Shown here: piece by piece, positions 199 through 16,666 of the stretch
Position numbering within the stretch: the first letter of the stretch is position 1
Layout of the letters: each line of letters starts with the position of its first letter
NCBI GenBank assembly: GCA_913778085.1
Contig: CAJYXJ010000005.1
Coordinates: forward strand, 1-58,200
Direction: 5' to 3'
DNA from: an uncultured Chryseobacterium sp.
GTDB taxonomy: Bacteria; Bacteroidota; Bacteroidia; Flavobacteriales; Weeksellaceae
DNA length: 58,200 nt
Translations under genes and position numbers: made by a program
Notes under the pieces: model-generated
The model's input: the letters and a program-made list of their open reading frames with translations, nothing else
Told to the model about the DNA's origin: nothing
The model's database searches: none

Positions 199-924
199 TC
201 ACGATCCCATTTGACTTTTTAATCTGTCAAGAGACATGTCTTCGGGTAGTCTGTGTAACATTCTATGGCAATTAGAGCATACTAATGCAAGATCATCTAA
301 TGTCGTTTTTTGATTAGTATTGTAAGTTGAAAGTTGTTGCGTGTGATGACATTCGATAAATCCTTTTCCTATTTCTCCATATTTTTTATGAAAATCAAAA
401 TCACAGACTTGACATAATAATTTACCAGTTTCTTTAAGAACTTGCAGTTTCTTTGAATTTATGAGTTTTTGGTTCCTTTCTCTTACTTTATGTAATTTAA
501 AAATTATTTCACCTTCGATTGCCTCTGTAATAGGTGCTTCCGAAAGTTCCTCAATTTGATAGATCTTAGTATTTAGTTCCTCATCACCTAAAGTTTCAAT
601 AATAACATTAGAAATATTTTTTAATACAGTTTGATTGTTCTGAAATTCGAAAAAAATCTGTTTGTCTAATTTAGAGAAACGTTCTAGACCTTTTGAAGGA
701 TTGTTAGGATCAATTGATGTAAAATTATTTAGTTTCATTGCAACACCATTAGGATTTCTAAAGTCAGAATTTCTGTTTTGTTTAGAATGCAATGGTAATT
801 TGTTCAAAATTTCAGAGAGTTTGATAATCTCTGGGTTGATACTAATAAATGAACTTGATTCCAAATTAAAGTAGAGATTCAATGTTAGGATAAGTTCGTC
901 TCTTTGCCATTTGGGGTTTTTCAT
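199..924 (-). CDS. HNH endonuclease, McrA-like putative restriction nuclease
   Basis: A 241-residue protein with a C-terminal HNH nuclease fold. The zinc-type CQVC pair is near residues 171-174, the catalytic ECHH near 191-194 and CSNCH near 216-220. The N-terminal ~130 residues (start KNPKWQRDELI, later FRNPNGVAMKL) resemble the recognition half of stand-alone HNH restriction enzymes of the type annotated as 5-methylcytosine-specific, so modified or foreign DNA is the likely target; that specificity is inferred. No methyltransferase is adjacent. The XRE gene upstream on the same strand ends in its own terminator (1028-1057), so the nuclease is probably transcribed separately. Confidence 0.8.
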   Translation of the reverse strand: MKNPKWQRDELILTLNLYFNLESSSFISINPEIIKLSEILNKLPLHSKQNRNSDFRNPNGVAMKLNNFTSIDPNNPSKGLERFSKLDKQIFFEFQNNQTVLKNISNVIIETLGDEELNTKIYQIEELSEAPITEAIEGEIIFKLHKVRERNQKLINSKKLQVLKETGKLLCQVCDFDFHKKYGEIGKGFIECHHTQQLSTYNTNQKTTLDDLALVCSNCHRMLHRLPEDMSLDRLKSQMGS

Positions 925-1027
925 GGTTGTTATGGTTTTGATGATTTGAATTGCTTTAAAAAATTCTAAGATTATAAAAAAACGTCTTCAAAATAGTGTT
1001 AATAGCTTAATAGTTATATTTATAAAT

Positions 1028-1057
1028 AAAATCCTAACTGTATTTAGTTAGGATTTT
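1028..1057 (-). terminator. Hairpin terminator overlapping the end of the XRE gene
   Basis: Perfect 12-bp arms AAAATCCTAACT (1028-1039) and AGTTAGGATTTT (1046-1057) surround a 6-nt loop. Read on the minus strand it is followed by a T-rich stretch. The XRE stop codon (1044-1046) lies in the loop and first arm position, so the last codons are part of the terminator stem. Confidence 0.7.
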
Positions 1058-1301
1058 CAGAGTTGTACTTTTCAAAATCAAACTTAAAGTCGAGTAAGTC
1101 TTTAGGCTTAACTTTTAGAGCATTTGATAATTTTATAAGTGTTTTCATAGTTAGATTTATTTTACCCAACTCATATTTATTAATGTCACTTGAATCAATT
1201 CCAGTCAGAAATTCAATATCATCCAAAGTCTGTTCATTTTTACTTCTAATTTCAGAAATTCTCTTTCCAATTGCACTCAAAAAGTCCTCTGTAATATTCA
1301 T
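1044..1301 (-). CDS. XRE-family helix-turn-helix regulator (module copy 1)
   Basis: An 85-residue protein made almost entirely of a Cro/CI-type HTH domain (about residues 10-70) with the pattern IGKRISEIRSKNEQTLDDIEF...GIDSSDINKYELGK. Its tail (KPKDLLDFKFDFEKY) matches the tail of the XRE protein at 15710-15967 (HPKELFDIAFDFEEY), so the two are paralogs. It is divergent from the 178-aa gene at 1795 across a region with two palindromes (1319-1332 and 1343-1366). Autorepression plus repression of the divergent transcript is the likely mode. No toxin or protease domain is fused. Confidence 0.85.
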   Translation of the reverse strand: MNITEDFLSAIGKRISEIRSKNEQTLDDIEFLTGIDSSDINKYELGKINLTMKTLIKLSNALKVKPKDLLDFKFDFEKYNSENPN

Positions 1302-1318
1302 TTTAATGATTTGAAGCT

Positions 1319-1387
1319 AAAGTCCTGACTTTTATAAAATTTATTTTGGGGATATATCCCCAAAATGAAAATAATTTAATATATTTG
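1319..1387. promoter_or_regulatory. Two palindromic operators and the rightward -7 box of module copy 1
   Basis: A short palindrome AAAGTC-CT-GACTTT (1319-1332) lies just outside the XRE start. A perfect 24-bp palindrome with half-site ATTTTGGGGATA covers 1343-1366. A Bacteroidota -7 box TATATTTG (TAnnTTTG) follows at 1380-1387, 13 bp after the palindrome, so the palindrome covers the -33 region. The same layout recurs at 15584-15626 and 16010-16053. A second box, TAACTTTG at 1409-1416, is an alternative start. Binding by the adjacent XRE protein is inferred. Confidence 0.6.
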
Positions 1388-1390
1388 TGA

Positions 1391-1794
1391 CATAAGTTAT
1401 ATATACTGTAACTTTGCGATACTTCAAAGAATATTAGAAGCTATTGCTTAGAATCTCTAACTGAAAACTGGTAATTTTTAAACATACGAGATGATAAGCA
1501 GGAAACTCACGACCTAGGCGTTGGCTCTCTTATCTGTATGTAAGGTATACCAGTACCTCAGTTAGGATAATGTAGAGTCCCATGCCGTTTTATTTTCCAT
1601 GCCGTCCGCCTTTCTACAGACCTTCTAAGCTTGCTTTACCATACAGAGTATCAGAAAAAGATACAATAGGAAGGTACCGCTTATTGCCGCGGGGTTCAAC
1701 AGGCCCGGCTATTAAAGATCATTTATTATTGTATTGAGCCATAGGGTCATTCCTGCATGGCCGGATAACACGCAAGCCTAAAAAAACAAAACAA
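1391..1794 (+). ncRNA. Long structured 5' leader / candidate RNA element
   Basis: About 400 nt with no convincing ORF separate the predicted promoter from the 178-aa gene. Complementary arms: CTAACTGA 1456-1463 with TCAGTTAG 1558-1565; ACTGGTA 1466-1472 with TACCAGT 1548-1554; an inner CATAC/GTATG and AAG/CTT helix around 1482-1541; TGTAGA 1571-1576 with TCTACA 1613-1618; ACCTTCTA 1620-1627 with TAGGAAGGT 1667-1675, enclosing GTATC/GATAC (1648-1664); and a GC-rich hairpin around 1686-1710. TGCTTA-GA-ATCTC (1445-1457) can instead pair with GAGAT-GA-TAAGCA (1488-1500), competing with the outer helix. I do not recognise a known RNA class. The paralog at 16130 lacks this leader. Confidence 0.4.
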
Positions 1795-2331
1795 ATGAAA
1801 AAGAAAAAAACAGACCTTGAATCCCGGTTTTGGTCCGGCCGGAGCAACCTTTCACCCGTATCGCTGCTGGAAGCGTTTTTCCAGTTCCATGATCTGGCTA
1901 CGGCCAAAGAACGGCTTAACTGCATCATGGCGCATGCGGTTCAGGGGAAAGTCCGGATCAGCGAAGATCCTTCCGTTATCTTTCATTTCCACCAGTCGAT
2001 GCGGTCGTTCATCCTCGCCGGATATGGCCTGAGGAAGAAATCCGGGAAATGGTTGGTCAATACACTTTCCGGGCAGGGGAGTGCGCTGGAGCTGGGTTCG
2101 CTTTCGGAGGAAGAATACCGCGATCCGGTTTTGGTCTTCCGCAAAGCCTTTCAGGAATACCGTCCGGCGCAGTTCCTGGATTTCCTGGCGGACGTGGTGT
2201 ATTTCTCGCTCGGCACTTTTAATAACGTACCGGAAGGCAATATCGTGGGGCCGTACCTGCACCTCTGCAAAATGCTGGATGCCGCCGGGCTGATCGTGGA
2301 GAGAAGGGCTCAGGAAGGGAAGGATCAATGA
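1795..2331 (+). CDS. Conserved protein of unknown function, ~178 aa (module copy 1)
   Basis: A 178-residue soluble-looking protein with no signal peptide or membrane segment and a lysine-rich start (MKKKKTDLESRFWSG). It is a clear paralog of the protein at 16130-16666. Shared blocks are the ARFWSG/SRFWSG start, FFQF-DLA-AKE, EPS-(V/I)FHF--SMRS-I-AGY, (S)LxEEEYRDP--VF-KAF and the C-terminal PYLHL-KMLDAA. The regular helical pattern suggests an all-alpha fold. No catalytic motif is visible and I do not recognise the family. It faces an XRE regulator across palindromic operators and sits behind a long structured leader. Confidence 0.8.
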   Translation: MKKKKTDLESRFWSGRSNLSPVSLLEAFFQFHDLATAKERLNCIMAHAVQGKVRISEDPSVIFHFHQSMRSFILAGYGLRKKSGKWLVNTLSGQGSALELGSLSEEEYRDPVLVFRKAFQEYRPAQFLDFLADVVYFSLGTFNNVPEGNIVGPYLHLCKMLDAAGLIVERRAQEGKDQ

Positions 2332-2425
2332 CCGGCGATGGTTTGTCCGGCTGTGAACCGTCCTGCAATTGGAACAAGTATTGCTGGTTTTGGGGAACGC
2401 TAAATTAATCACTTAAGCTATTCCA

Positions 2426-3091
2426 ATGAACGATTTTTATGATAAATTCAGGCATAGAAATAGATTTGACGAACATGCGGAAGCCATATCCGCGCATCTG
2501 GATGAGCGGTTTACCTCTGATGAAATCACCGTTTACCATGAAATGTTTTCCCCCGATTTTCACCTGGATGTCTATTTTGTACAACCTGAGAAATACAATT
2601 TCAATATCTTACTCACGGCCGGCATGAGTACGCTCGAAATGACTGTTCCTCCGGACGTGGAAAACCCGCAGGAGTATCAGTTTGCGGAGCTCATGCTCCT
2701 GCTTCCGAAATCCATTGCTTTCGGTGAGGTCACCGGCGATAATCCCAACGACTGGCTCATCGATATGCTGAAAGAAAATGCCCGGTTCCCGCACCATTAC
2801 GATACCTGGCTGACGATCGGCCATACCCTGCAGGCCACGGCCGATATGGAACCGTATGCGGAACAGACGGAGTACACGGGCGTCGTAATCCTGCCGTCCG
2901 TGAACTTTGACGAAGATTTTACGACCCTGCAGGCCGGAGAAAACCGGATCAACATCTATTCTGTGTTCCCGCTCTACGCTGACGAAATGAATTATAAGAT
3001 ACAAAACGGATACAACGCCCTTCTGGACCGGCTGATCGTGAAAAATGCGAAGGAGGTTTTTGATGAAGGCAGGGAAAGCTTATTGAGTTAA
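2426..3091 (+). CDS. Suppressor-of-fused (SUFU) domain protein
   Basis: A 221-residue protein matching the bacterial SUFU-like family. Typical elements are the DEITVYHEMFSPDFHLDVYFVQP start of the domain (around residues 36-58), AGMSTLEMTVP, the central FAELMLLLP, the middle NDWLIDMLKENARFPHHYDTW and the late INIYSVFPLYADEMNYKIQNG. Bacterial members are cytosolic and often associated with immunity or polymorphic-toxin contexts; their biochemical role is unclear. It lies 94 bp after the 178-aa gene on the same strand and may share its transcript. Similar GC content suggests the two travel together, but no such gene follows the second module copy. Confidence 0.8.
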   Translation: MNDFYDKFRHRNRFDEHAEAISAHLDERFTSDEITVYHEMFSPDFHLDVYFVQPEKYNFNILLTAGMSTLEMTVPPDVENPQEYQFAELMLLLPKSIAFGEVTGDNPNDWLIDMLKENARFPHHYDTWLTIGHTLQATADMEPYAEQTEYTGVVILPSVNFDEDFTTLQAGENRINIYSVFPLYADEMNYKIQNGYNALLDRLIVKNAKEVFDEGRESLLS

Positions 3092-3299: not shown

Positions 3300-3575
3300 T
3301 CTGATAATCATCATACCTTTGACTCTGTTATCGACACCGGAAACACCCAGCCTCCAGCATCCCTCTTCCAGCCCATTAACCTTATTTCTGATAATCCTCA
3401 TACCTCTGACTCTGTTTTCGACACCGAAAACCTCCGGCACCCAGCTTCCCTCTTCCAGCCTGTCCATCTGATTTCTGATAATCATCATACCTCTGGCTCT
3501 ATTGTCAACACCGGAAACATCCAGCTTCCAGCACCCAGCTTCCGGCCTGTCAACCTTATTTCTTCTTCGGGTTTA
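3300..3575. repeat. Tandem array of an ~87-bp repeat (about three units)
   Basis: Units beginning TCTGATAATCATCATACC start at 3300, 3387 and 3474, an exact 87-bp period, with a partial unit before and after. Each unit continues CTCTGACTCTGTT, then GACACCGGAAAC, and ends in runs such as CCAGCTTCC and CTCTTCCAGCC. The array fills the gap between two convergent genes (SUFU and the NTF2-like gene). Further copies lie at 4070-4220 and 5636-5770. Open frames through it are by-products of the period being divisible by three. Confidence 0.85.
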
Positions 3576-3906: not shown

Positions 3907-4069
3907 AGGTTGGTATTTTAAATTAATTTAGTTGTATTGTGTTGATATGCATTATTTTGTTGAAGCAGAAATAAGGCTAAGAGTTGTGGGTAGGATTTAG
4001 ATAGAGTCCGCTTTTACAGAATGCTCAACCATCTCGTTTACCTGTCAACACTTTTGACCGTATTTTGAC

Positions 4070-4220
4070 AAAAGGAACCTCCGGCACCCAGCTTCCCTCT
4101 TCCAGCCCGTTAACCTTCTTCTGATAATCAGCATACCTCTGACTCTGTTTTCAACACCGGAAACACCCAGCATCCAGCACCCATCTTCCAGCCTGCTAAC
4201 CTGATTTCTGCTTCAGGTTC
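4070..4220. repeat. Dispersed copy (about 1.5 units) of the 87-bp repeat
   Basis: The stretch carries GGCACCCAGCTTCCCTC, CTGATAATCAGCATACC, CTCTGACTCTGTTTTC and AACACCGGAAACACCCAGC in the same order as the array at 3300-3575. It sits between the end of the SDR gene (minus strand) and the upstream region of the NTF2-like gene. The rest of the gap 3907-4069 is AT-rich with nothing else recognisable. Confidence 0.8.
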
Positions 4221-5635: not shown

Positions 5636-5770
5636 AACTTCCGGCATCCAGCTTCCAGTTTCCAGTCTGTCAACCTTATTTCTGATAATCACACCTCTGA
5701 CTCTGTTTTCAACACCGGAAACACCCAGCCTCCGGCTTCCCTCTTCCAGCCTCTTAACATGATTTCCATT
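5636..5770. repeat. Dispersed copy of the 87-bp repeat between convergent genes
   Basis: CCGGCATCCAGCTTCC, CTGATAATCACACC, CTCTGACTCTGTTTTC, AACACCGGAAACACCCAGCC and CCCTCTTCCAGCC appear in the order of the main array. The copy fills the gap between hxlR (+) and the YihY gene (-), immediately after the hxlR terminator. Confidence 0.8.
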
Positions 5771-5791
5771 GTGAGCTCAAACTGATCCTAT

Positions 5792-15030: not shown

Positions 15031-15282
15031 TCAAAATCCCAACTCTCGTGAAGATTTTCCGTCAATTTTAAAATTAAATAATTCTTGAGGATGAACTTCC
15101 AAACCTTTGGACAGCTCATATATGGTTGAAATTCTTAAATCGACTTCGCCTTTTTCAATCTTGCTGATGTTGCTGTGATCCACGTCGCATTTTTGAGCCA
15201 ACTGCCGGTAACTCAGACCCAGGCTTTTTCTAAATTTTTCAACATTCTTTTCAAAAGCCAACCGGAATTCAATTTTATCCAT
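15031..15282 (-). CDS. XRE-family regulator, downstream member of the XRE cluster
   Basis: An 83-residue Cro/CI-type HTH protein (LSYRQLAQKCDVDHSNISKIEKGEVDL at about residues 24-50) with the paralog tail VHPQELFNFKID. It begins 21 bp after the next XRE gene (15304-15552) on the same strand and is probably co-transcribed with it. It has no divergent partner of its own, so it may be what remains of a further module. Confidence 0.85.
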   Translation of the reverse strand: MDKIEFRLAFEKNVEKFRKSLGLSYRQLAQKCDVDHSNISKIEKGEVDLRISTIYELSKGLEVHPQELFNFKIDGKSSRELGF

Positions 15283-15303: not shown

Positions 15304-15552
15304 TTATTTAAACAACGGATCATCAAAAAATTCCTGCAGGGTAATTTTTACGAGCATACAAAACTTTTGAATGGTGTAGATGGTAACGCCCCTTTCGCTT
15401 TCAAAGCTTTCCCAGCGGTTGACCTGTTGTCGGTCAATTTCATGAAGTTTAGCAAACTCACTCTGATTCAGCCCGGTAGATTTTCTCAGATTGATTAATC
15501 TCTGAGTAATCTTATTCCTCAATTCTATATCGTCTTTGCTAAGTTTGCTCAT
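15304..15552 (-). CDS. XRE-family regulator of the decayed module copy
   Basis: An 82-residue HTH protein (LNQSEFAKLHEIDRQQVNRWES) more diverged than the other three XRE proteins: recognition-helix residues and the tail (LQEFFDDPLFK) differ. Its upstream region carries a 22-bp near-palindrome and a rightward TAnnTTTG box leading into the start of a truncated ORF (15664), the same layout as the two intact modules. Confidence 0.8.
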   Translation of the reverse strand: MSKLSKDDIELRNKITQRLINLRKSTGLNQSEFAKLHEIDRQQVNRWESFESERGVTIYTIQKFCMLVKITLQEFFDDPLFK

Positions 15553-15709: not shown

Positions 15710-15967
15710 TTACTGATCAAGTTCAGAATAATATTCTTCAAAATCAAAGGCAATATCGAAAAGTTCCTTGGGATGAATTCTCAGACCGGTAGCGATTTCA
15801 AGTAAAGTGCTCAGCTGACAGTCGATTTTATTGTTGGCCACATCACTAATTCTGGCTGAGGTGACATTGCATTTTTCGGCAATTTTTGAGTAAGGAATAT
15901 CACCTTTTGCTGCTTTAATTTTTTCAGCGATTAACCTCTTGATTTCTTCCGTCTTAAATTCATTCAT
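15710..15967 (-). CDS. XRE-family regulator (module copy 2)
   Basis: An 85-residue HTH protein (PYSKIAEKCNVTSARISDVANNKIDCQL) with the tail IHPKELFDIAFDFEEY shared with the XRE protein at 1044. ATG 15967 (MNEFKTEEIK) is preferred because the alternative ATG at 15982 lies inside a 21-bp inverted repeat that looks like an operator. It is divergent from the 178-aa gene at 16130 and probably represses both itself and that gene. Confidence 0.85.
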   Translation of the reverse strand: MNEFKTEEIKRLIAEKIKAAKGDIPYSKIAEKCNVTSARISDVANNKIDCQLSTLLEIATGLRIHPKELFDIAFDFEEYYSELDQ

Positions 15968-16053
15968 AATTGCATGTTTCATGCAATTTGATATTTAATT
16001 AAAAAAATATCGTTACCGAATTCGGTAACGAATAAAAATTATTATTACATTTG
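15968..16053. promoter_or_regulatory. Two palindromes and -7 box of module copy 2
   Basis: AATTGCATG-TTT-CATGCAATT occupies 15968-15988 next to the XRE start. A perfect 22-bp palindrome with half-site TCGTTACCGAA occupies 16010-16031. The rightward box TACATTTG is at 16046-16053. The centre-to-box distance (about 25 bp) matches the other two copies. Confidence 0.65.
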
Positions 16054-16129: not shown

Positions 16130-16666
16130 ATGATGAAAAAGAAAAATTTAGATCTGGAAGCCCGGTTTTGGTCCGGCAGTAAAATGTATTCAGCGTTGGG
16201 GCTTATGGAAACATTTTTTCAGTTTAACGATCTGGCGGCGGCTAAAGAAACGTTAAGCACGATGATGCAGCATGCGGTGAAGAAAAACAGCCGGATCGGG
16301 GAGGAGCCTTCCGCGGTCTTTCACTTTTACCTGTCGATGCGCTCGTTGATCCGGGCAGGTTATCTTATCAGGAAGCAGTCAAAGCAAGGGAAGCTGAACC
16401 TGCATTCTGAAATCCGGTCTCCGCTCATGCAGGGTTCTCTTCGCGAAGAAGAATATCGGGATCCGCTGCGGGTTTTCCAAAAAGCCTTCAAAGCCCACAG
16501 CCTGCAGGAATTCGACGGTTTTATGGCAGGAATCGTGTATTTTTCCCTCGGAAGCGGCAGCTGTGAAACGGAAAGCAGTATCGTAAGTCCTTACCTCCAC
16601 CTTACCAAAATGCTGGATGCCGCATGGCTGCTCTTGGAAAGATCTTCAGCAGAAAAGGCAACCTGA
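16130..16666 (+). CDS. Conserved protein of unknown function, ~178 aa (module copy 2)
   Basis: A 178-residue paralog of the protein at 1795-2331, sharing the RFWSG start, the FFQFNDLAAAKE block, EEPSAVFHFYLSMRSLIRAGY, REEEYRDPLRVFQKAF and PYLHLTKMLDAAWLLLER. The middle (residues about 83-100, IRKQSKQGKLNLHSEIR) is the most diverged stretch and could hold specificity. There is no signal peptide, membrane segment or catalytic motif. The predicted leader is only about 75 nt, in contrast to copy 1. Function unknown. Confidence 0.8.
   Translation: MMKKKNLDLEARFWSGSKMYSALGLMETFFQFNDLAAAKETLSTMMQHAVKKNSRIGEEPSAVFHFYLSMRSLIRAGYLIRKQSKQGKLNLHSEIRSPLMQGSLREEEYRDPLRVFQKAFKAHSLQEFDGFMAGIVYFSLGSGSCETESSIVSPYLHLTKMLDAAWLLLERSSAEKAT

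Follow-up and report, generated by a model that had tools for sequence, protein, structure and literature searches.

A putative repressor-governed switch cassette with exchangeable payloads and exchangeable defence cargo in Chryseobacterium

The DNA analysed here, a stretch of 58,200 nucleotides from an uncultured Chryseobacterium sp. (hereafter, the window), contains two divergent pairs of a small XRE gene and a gene for a 178-aa protein. In the first pair, an 85-aa XRE repressor at 1044..1301 on the minus strand (PF12844, 8.4e-12) faces the 178-aa gene at 1795..2331 on the plus strand. The interval between them holds a perfect 22-bp palindrome at 1344..1365 (z 5.0 against shuffles), which is a putative operator of the XRE, followed on the plus strand by a sequence match to a Bacteroidetes-type promoter, TTTG-N21-TAACTTTG, at 1384..1416 and by a structured leader RNA or small RNA at 1413..1597, of which 1413-1574 match our model R1. 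The apical hairpin of this RNA (1505..1528) has a 3' strand (1517-1528) that can instead pair with a terminator-like strand at 1574-1586, the RNA ends in a T-rich run (1588-1596), and a second conserved non-coding stretch follows at 1598..1710. On the far side of the XRE, in what we term the cargo slot, a 241-aa HNH nuclease-like protein is encoded at 199..924 on the minus strand (PF01844, 9.5e-8; PADLOC HNH model, 2e-15 across residues 3-125); because the contig begins at position 1, this slot is possibly incomplete. A SUFU-domain protein is encoded directly downstream of the 178-aa gene (2426-3091; PF05076, 4e-35), so that Pfam agrees with both neighbours named in the first-pass annotation, and the SUFU gene is also present at the orthologous places L056 and L057. 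Farther along, direct repeats of about 82 nt are interspersed at 3307-3562, 4041-4208 and 5636-5775 with a spacing of partly 86-87 nt (six copies of D1, seven of D3), and related repeats occur at L056 and L057.

The second 178-aa gene lies at 16130..16666 (+), where no leader RNA was found, and is preceded by another 22-bp palindrome and putative operator at 16010..16031. Its nearest XRE gene, at 15710..15982 (-), has a weak Pfam match (PF13443, 0.0037) and scores 9e-20 against the XRE profile built in this analysis, of which it is itself a seed. Two extra XRE genes stand behind it, at 15304..15552 (-; PF13443, 2.7e-5) and 15031..15282 (-; PF01381, 4.7e-13); neither these nor the RNA inside the first pair had been noticed earlier. 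The positions first given for the two pairs hold except for 15967, which is an internal ATG, the XRE start being 15982. The pairs had been read as a duplicated two-gene module, and for the 178-aa halves this is right: the two proteins are paralogous, with 55% identity over 174 aa (E 3e-65). The XRE halves have been exchanged rather than duplicated. They are alignable over only 50 aa, at 36% identity (E 9e-12, a single comparison), and fall into separate clusters at 50% identity, with unlike palindromes, while sharing one large cluster at 40%. Given the short match and the different clusters, the XRE half represents a shared superfamily and not a duplicated partner.

The description of the 178-aa protein as lacking a recognisable domain is accurate, as neither window protein has a Pfam or NCBIfam match at E<=1. 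An AlphaFold2 model is all-helical (pLDDT 81, pTM 0.80), the family is basic (median pI 9.5), and dN/dS values of 0.13-0.33 in 11 hand-chosen pairs, one with saturated dS, indicate purifying selection on the gene. A profile search of the PDB gave four matches at E 0.053-0.59, three of them to NF-YB, which we judged to be chance. Nor did we retain a plasmid or phage origin: the gene has no tblastn match at E<=1e-5 in plasmid and phage collections, and PHROGs yielded one weak match (0.0075) to 1 of 51 members. The gene is present in 30 of 60 genomes, comprising 30 of the 37 of the genus (the window's genome included) and 0 of the 23 others, and all 12 loci in named records are from Chryseobacterium. 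Searching 247 genomes of the class with a profile of 51 members gave homologues in five: two from the genus, one from family f3 and two from family f55. Nine matches, one partial, occur in the window's own genome, which also contains a remnant of the gene with stops (G000:C14:171184-171312), and several copies elsewhere are broken. Thirteen listed places fall outside the long-flank set, being fragments, contig-edge matches and some tail rows, including L049.

We inspected the flanks of 85 places in Chryseobacterium-type genomes, 83 of which have usable upstream sequence; this count excludes the fragment L097_10744 and L055_215, whose upstream sequence is 52 bp long. A divergent small XRE gene lies within 1.5 kb of the 178-aa gene in 78 of these 83, so the arrangement first seen at both window copies is genuine and recurrent, and a small XRE does face nearly every copy, as had been proposed. 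At L067 the XRE sits beyond an inserted 448-aa ORF, and no XRE was found within 1.5 kb at four evaluable copies (L089, L111, L112 and the broken copy L128). The pairing is not due to chance: across the 921 kb surrounding the 85 copies, in which some regions overlap, 85 of 94 XRE profile matches fall between -1500 and +60 of the 178-aa start, a 57-fold density, and all 85 are on the strand opposite to the 178-aa gene; the profile was trained iteratively on the same regions, which biases its reach but not the position of its matches.

The XREs themselves are diverse. The 78 nearest ones form 22 clusters at 50% identity (24 clusters for 97 XREs when loci with the RNA only are added), and the window XRE at 1044-1301 clusters with that of L071 only. 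This diversity extends to orthologous places: the window gene at 1795 and those at L056 and L057, together with their downstream sequence, share 88-92% nucleotide identity, yet their XREs belong to three clusters and their upstream contents are three different ones. Orthologous 178-aa copies about 91% identical in protein thus face unrelated XREs, and the suggestion that each protein faces its own repressor does not stand. Forty-four of the 78 XREs, one of them truncated by a contig end, have no co-directional gene of at least 90 aa within 400 bp, from which it follows that the cargo slot is not always filled and that the XRE need not control cargo.

The structured RNA lies between XRE and gene in 39 of the 85 copies, including the first copy of the window. 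These 39 have about 315 conserved non-coding bases in common and three more copies keep parts of them, so that with 46 copies lacking the full-length RNA it is not essential. The first ~180 bases fold into a hairpin and a long rod, with 98.9% of cells paired among 29 distinct sequences. Covariation reached 0.140, versus 0.064 for shuffled alignments and at most 0.036 for slid structures, and compensatory cells numbered 52 versus 17; two of five measures were weak (further pair types, 21 versus 20.1; pairs changed on both sides, 7 versus 5.1, with 7 of 500 shuffles as high for the latter). Almost all compensatory changes lie within one helix (columns 43-54 with 154-164), and the conserved, covarying secondary structure is that expected of a structured RNA, albeit with its variation mostly in that helix. 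Alignment A1 is without the short RNA of L063, and A2 without 9 of the 39. No Rfam 15 match was found for window positions 900-2500 at E<=1 or for five other loci at E<=0.1. We considered Rfp18 of F. psychrophilum as a counterpart and set it aside, since this sRNA acts on proteases and the word XRE is absent from the text (PMC9723704).

The apical strand of the RNA, GGCGTGRGCTC, is also able to pair with the tail just before the T-run. Although the tails, present in 60 of 63, were picked by pattern, the comparison of own with shuffled partners is a fair one, and it favours the own partner (-18.03 versus -17.11 kcal/mol, sd 0.25, 0 of 500 shuffles, 28 distinct pairs). At the level of sequence, a terminator-like helix with a U-run, mutually exclusive with another helix, is what an attenuator would present; since pairing of the terminator strands would be pseudoknotted with the rod, it may alternatively be a tertiary contact. 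Upstream, TTTG-N19..23-TAnnTTTG, which we take to be the Bacteroidetes-type promoter consensus, occupies the promoter place in 53 of 59 RNA loci. The spacer between the -33 and -7 boxes (about 1388-1411 in the window) contains an inverted repeat whose sequence varies while its symmetry tends to stay (mean arm 6.6 versus 4.3 for one shuffle per RNA locus); it could be a second operator or a hairpin. Seven copies (L053, L055, L118, L119, L123, L126 and L127) have long XRE-gene spacers without the RNA; in L053 and L055, about 500 bases of the spacer are alike (74% identity), perhaps a different leader.

The RNA is not confined to the 178-aa gene. At E<=0.001, model R1 matched 36 of the 60 relatives and 31 of the 37 of the genus, some matches being weak, and five genus genomes have the RNA without the 178-aa gene; at E<=1e-12 it matched 7 of 247 genomes of the class, in 4 of 135 genera. 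A divergent XRE accompanies 19 of the 20 RNA loci with long flanks that lack the 178-aa gene. Downstream of these 20 we found a large SusC-like receptor gene in 15 (SusC and SusD confirmed by Pfam at L150 only, the others assigned by length and N-terminal similarity by eye) and an operon of a sigma factor and dCas12f in two; two more stop at contig edges, and one, L164, differs and has no XRE. Among five further RNA loci, seen with 1.5-kb flanks, an XRE is present at L175, L176 and L177; none is in view at L180 (1.5-kb flanks) or at L144, a weak match in the window's own genome. L177, from family f31, has an ECF sigma gene behind the RNA and a gene for an AAA ATPase behind the XRE. The stretch corresponding to 1598..1710 recurs in other 178-aa loci and in SusC loci of the genus and has no match in the sigma/dCas12f loci L149 and L159.

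Palindromes accompany the XREs in a type-specific manner. In 40 of the 58 loci that carry the RNA, the best palindrome found ahead of the promoter lies 46-56 nt before the RNA box, and in only 31 of the 58 do palindromes stand out from shuffles (z>=2). Many XRE clusters have a cluster-specific palindrome; the core of that at 16010..16031, for instance, recurs at L084, L086, L088, L102 and L109, which have XREs of the same cluster. Within clusters, the longest shared string averages 9.0 (81 pairs) against 4.25 between clusters (1515 pairs), and none of 1000 label shuffles over the 58 RNA loci was as high. Like palindromes precede 178-aa loci (RNA-less ones included), SusC loci and sigma-dCas12f loci of the same XRE type, albeit not at every locus or in every cluster. 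XRE types therefore go with palindromes of their own, a point in favour of the first interpretation; the likeness within clusters may also reflect common descent rather than binding.

Copies within one genome tend to have different XRE types. Only 1 of 144 within-genome pairs (94 copies, 34 genomes) shares an XRE cluster, where shuffles gave 7.19 +/- 2.60 and 0.5% of 2000 were as low; the test covers fetched copies, and its clusters are not independent of phylogeny. Clustering at 40% identity gave 13 such pairs versus 24.65 expected. Copies in one genome thus differ, at the level of XRE clusters, in predicted repressor specificity, as repressor incompatibility would have it. A corresponding insulation of the P1 stems was not retained: stems differ in 47 of 47 within-genome pairs, which is not significant (18% of shuffles as low).

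Anti-phage models are frequent among the genes on the XRE-distal side, in keeping with the defence setting proposed at the outset. With models rather than proteins as the unit, and with one gene (the nearest) scanned at each locus, 363 PADLOC models matched at 1e-5 among the first genes on the XRE-distal side of 97 loci, including GajA, PtuA, AbiLi, AriA and reverse transcriptases, compared to six among the downstream first genes of 92 loci; three of these six are Cas12 models, matched by two members, in line with the presence of two dCas12f genes in the set. Known defence systems often occupy the slot, among them SIR2-HerA, DRT, Gabija and RdrA-like ones. A single slot, recognised by a left flank gene common to L060/L130, L062/L131, L063/L132, L064/L133 and L051, contains SIR2-HerA at L051, DRT UG9 with an MBL partner at L062, a UG5-nitrilase DRT at L060, an RdrA-like ATPase at L064/L133 and, at L063, two scanned genes without a match. 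The right side of the L051 slot is truncated by a contig end, and its first ~200 bp there match L062. The same flanks thus enclose different defence content in different genomes, as in a defence hotspot, and the terminator of the left flank gene closes the common stretch in six of seven sequences viewed, L066 being different. At L130, positions -11227..-5608 relative to the 178-aa start hold the left flank gene (172 aa), three genes and a partial second copy of the flank gene; the next cassette comes after this copy, an arrangement resembling two stacked cassettes. In the slots of L109 and L115 we observed by eye an arsenic resistance-like operon (DUF6428 in two members), and the slot is therefore not solely for defence.

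The distant homologues in family f55, possibly Sphingobacteriaceae, point in the same direction, since the 178-aa-type domain is fused or adjacent to HEPN proteins in five of seven loci viewed, mostly with a divergent XRE; an immunity-like accessory setting, as first suggested, gains support from this coupling. Three loci of G259 encode the domain as a fusion with a HEPN at the C-terminus, and a divergent XRE accompanies each. PF05168 matches the L186 fusion (the L188 locus) at 2.1e-12, and the neighbour at L185 has a HEPN match at 4.2e-11; at L191 and L214 the domain lies next to a HEPN gene, and none is in view at L189 and L202. An XRE is in view at five of the seven loci, the exceptions being L189 and L214. 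By eye, the f55 XREs look similar to those of L052 and L083, which are 137 aa long, and this resemblance suggests that XRE and domain may be the older pair. In the two window 178-aa proteins themselves, Pfam gave no match to HEPN. The 178-aa protein probably represents, as a stand-alone version, a domain found elsewhere in the company of HEPN proteins, and for this reason an accessory role in immunity appears the most likely one for it.

We propose, with a probability of roughly 0.55, that the XRE/178-aa pair belongs to a modular, repressor-governed switch cassette with an exchangeable payload and exchangeable defence cargo. The pair would be one form of a bacterial switch with interchangeable repressors, DNA sites of their own and, often, a folded RNA. 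The small XRE would bind the palindrome between its own gene and the divergent promoter, controlling the divergent transcript and probably its own as well. Transcription away from the XRE would yield the structured RNA in about half of the copies, in which the apical hairpin and the terminator-like helix may compete for one strand; with that strand common to both, read-through into the payload would be a second control step. Three kinds of payload are seen, namely the 178-aa protein, outer-membrane receptor operons of SusC/SusD type and operons of a sigma factor with dCas12f, and in the slot distal to the XRE anti-phage systems are swapped. XRE and palindrome would move as a unit, and because the XRE types of copies that share a genome differ, these copies may be insulated from each other like heteroimmune phage repressors.

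Several other explanations share parts of this evidence. The XRE might regulate the defence cassette only, with the 178-aa or SusC gene as a bystander that serves as the fixed chromosomal anchor of a passive hotspot. The XRE genes are indeed AT-rich (mean GC 0.31 versus 0.45 for the 178-aa gene, and lower in 77 of 78), and the left junction of the slot described above directly follows the flank gene's terminator. However, XRE, palindrome and promoter remain at the 44 of 78 copies whose XRE has no close co-directional cargo gene, and one front end stands before three payload classes; we consider this explanation unlikely. Were the pair a toxin-antitoxin system derived from HEPN modules, with the XRE as antitoxin and the 178-aa protein as toxin, its multicopy state, the broken copies and the XRE/HEPN coupling of the homologues would be readily accounted for. 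The genes are nevertheless divergent rather than in one operon (all 85 in-zone XREs are on the opposite strand), intact copies without a detected XRE exist (L089, L111, L112), and the 178-aa protein has no HEPN match. Because XREs have been swapped between 178-aa proteins about 91% identical, leaving no cognate co-inheritance, we dropped this as the best reading: neither the single operon nor the jointly inherited pair of a type II system is found here, and we regard such a system as improbable.

The front end may also be viewed as the conserved end of a mobile element that a site-specific recombinase inserts before host genes. The same XRE-RNA block before unrelated genes in several families would be consistent with this, as would a resolvase-like ORF in the slots of L056 and L065, but the gene lists contain no integrase common to the slots and no RNA remnant lies on the far side of the cassettes. 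A search there for RNA copies as att sites found none, att repeats being judged by eye in one slot only, and we find this view very improbable. Even less credible to us is that the RNA is a guide RNA acting in trans for a dCas12f/sigma system, with the 178-aa protein as its accessory or target. The published dCas12f-sigmaE system (PDB 9n9c, 9n9q) reportedly performs RNA-guided transcription, and the RNA does lie directly upstream of sigma-dCas12f at L149 and L159; at L149, matches are to 9n9c for dCas12f (1.7e-156) and to RpoE of 9n9q for the sigma factor (7.1e-76). What led us to reject the idea is that a search at E<=1e-10 found no dCas12f in 29 of the 37 genus genomes, the window's (a draft of completeness 100) among them, yet the RNA occurs in 31 of the 37. 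Moreover, the RNA was not found at four of nine dCas12f loci (1.5-kb flanks), and its 3' part shows conservation across the 178-aa loci, whereas variation would be expected there of a guide.

The proposed switch cassette resembles several known systems in part. Phage CI-type immunity regions combine a small HTH repressor, a palindromic operator, divergent promoters and mutually avoiding specificities, all of which have their likeness here, but our cassette is chromosomal and its payload consists of a conserved 178-aa protein, of an operon for a receptor or of one for a sigma factor and dCas12f. The C proteins of restriction-modification systems and BrxR/CapW are, like the XRE, small DNA-binding regulators beside anti-phage operons; unlike them, the XRE is turned to a separate payload on the side opposite the cargo, and a single kind of front end is shared by many unrelated defence systems. 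Defence hotspots hold different defence systems between the same flanks, as seen here, whereas these slots number several per genome and are marked by an XRE-palindrome(-RNA) front end. The dCas12f-sigmaE operon can carry the same front end, but it was not found in the window's genome, and, as the evidence now stands, the RNA is not its guide. Transcription attenuators and riboswitches have in common with the leader RNA a covarying helix, conserved internal loops and exclusive terminator-like and anti-terminator-like pairing, although this leader has no Rfam 15 match and is nearly always beside an XRE. HEPN/MNT-type proteins share the homologous N-terminal domain fused or adjacent to HEPN, mostly with a divergent XRE, in f55, whereas the Chryseobacterium 178-aa protein stands alone.

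Among the matches listed from the open PMC literature, no description of the XRE/178-aa unit was found in the portions of text available. The analysis adds a structured RNA class without a match in Rfam 15 and places a domain without a Pfam family beside HEPN proteins. In practical terms, the RNA covariance model and the XRE-palindrome pairs offer a sequence handle for defence slots in Bacteroidota. It is a tentative possibility that a repressor-incompatible Bacteroidota element made up of an XRE, its operator and a new attenuator-type RNA couples exchangeable anti-phage cassettes to the expression of outer-membrane receptors, RNA-guided regulators or a HEPN-related protein, such that acquiring a defence system would rewire the expression of surface receptors. 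Surface receptors are common entry points for phages, and the switch cassette suggests that a single switch may link the acquisition of defence to the expression of these receptors.
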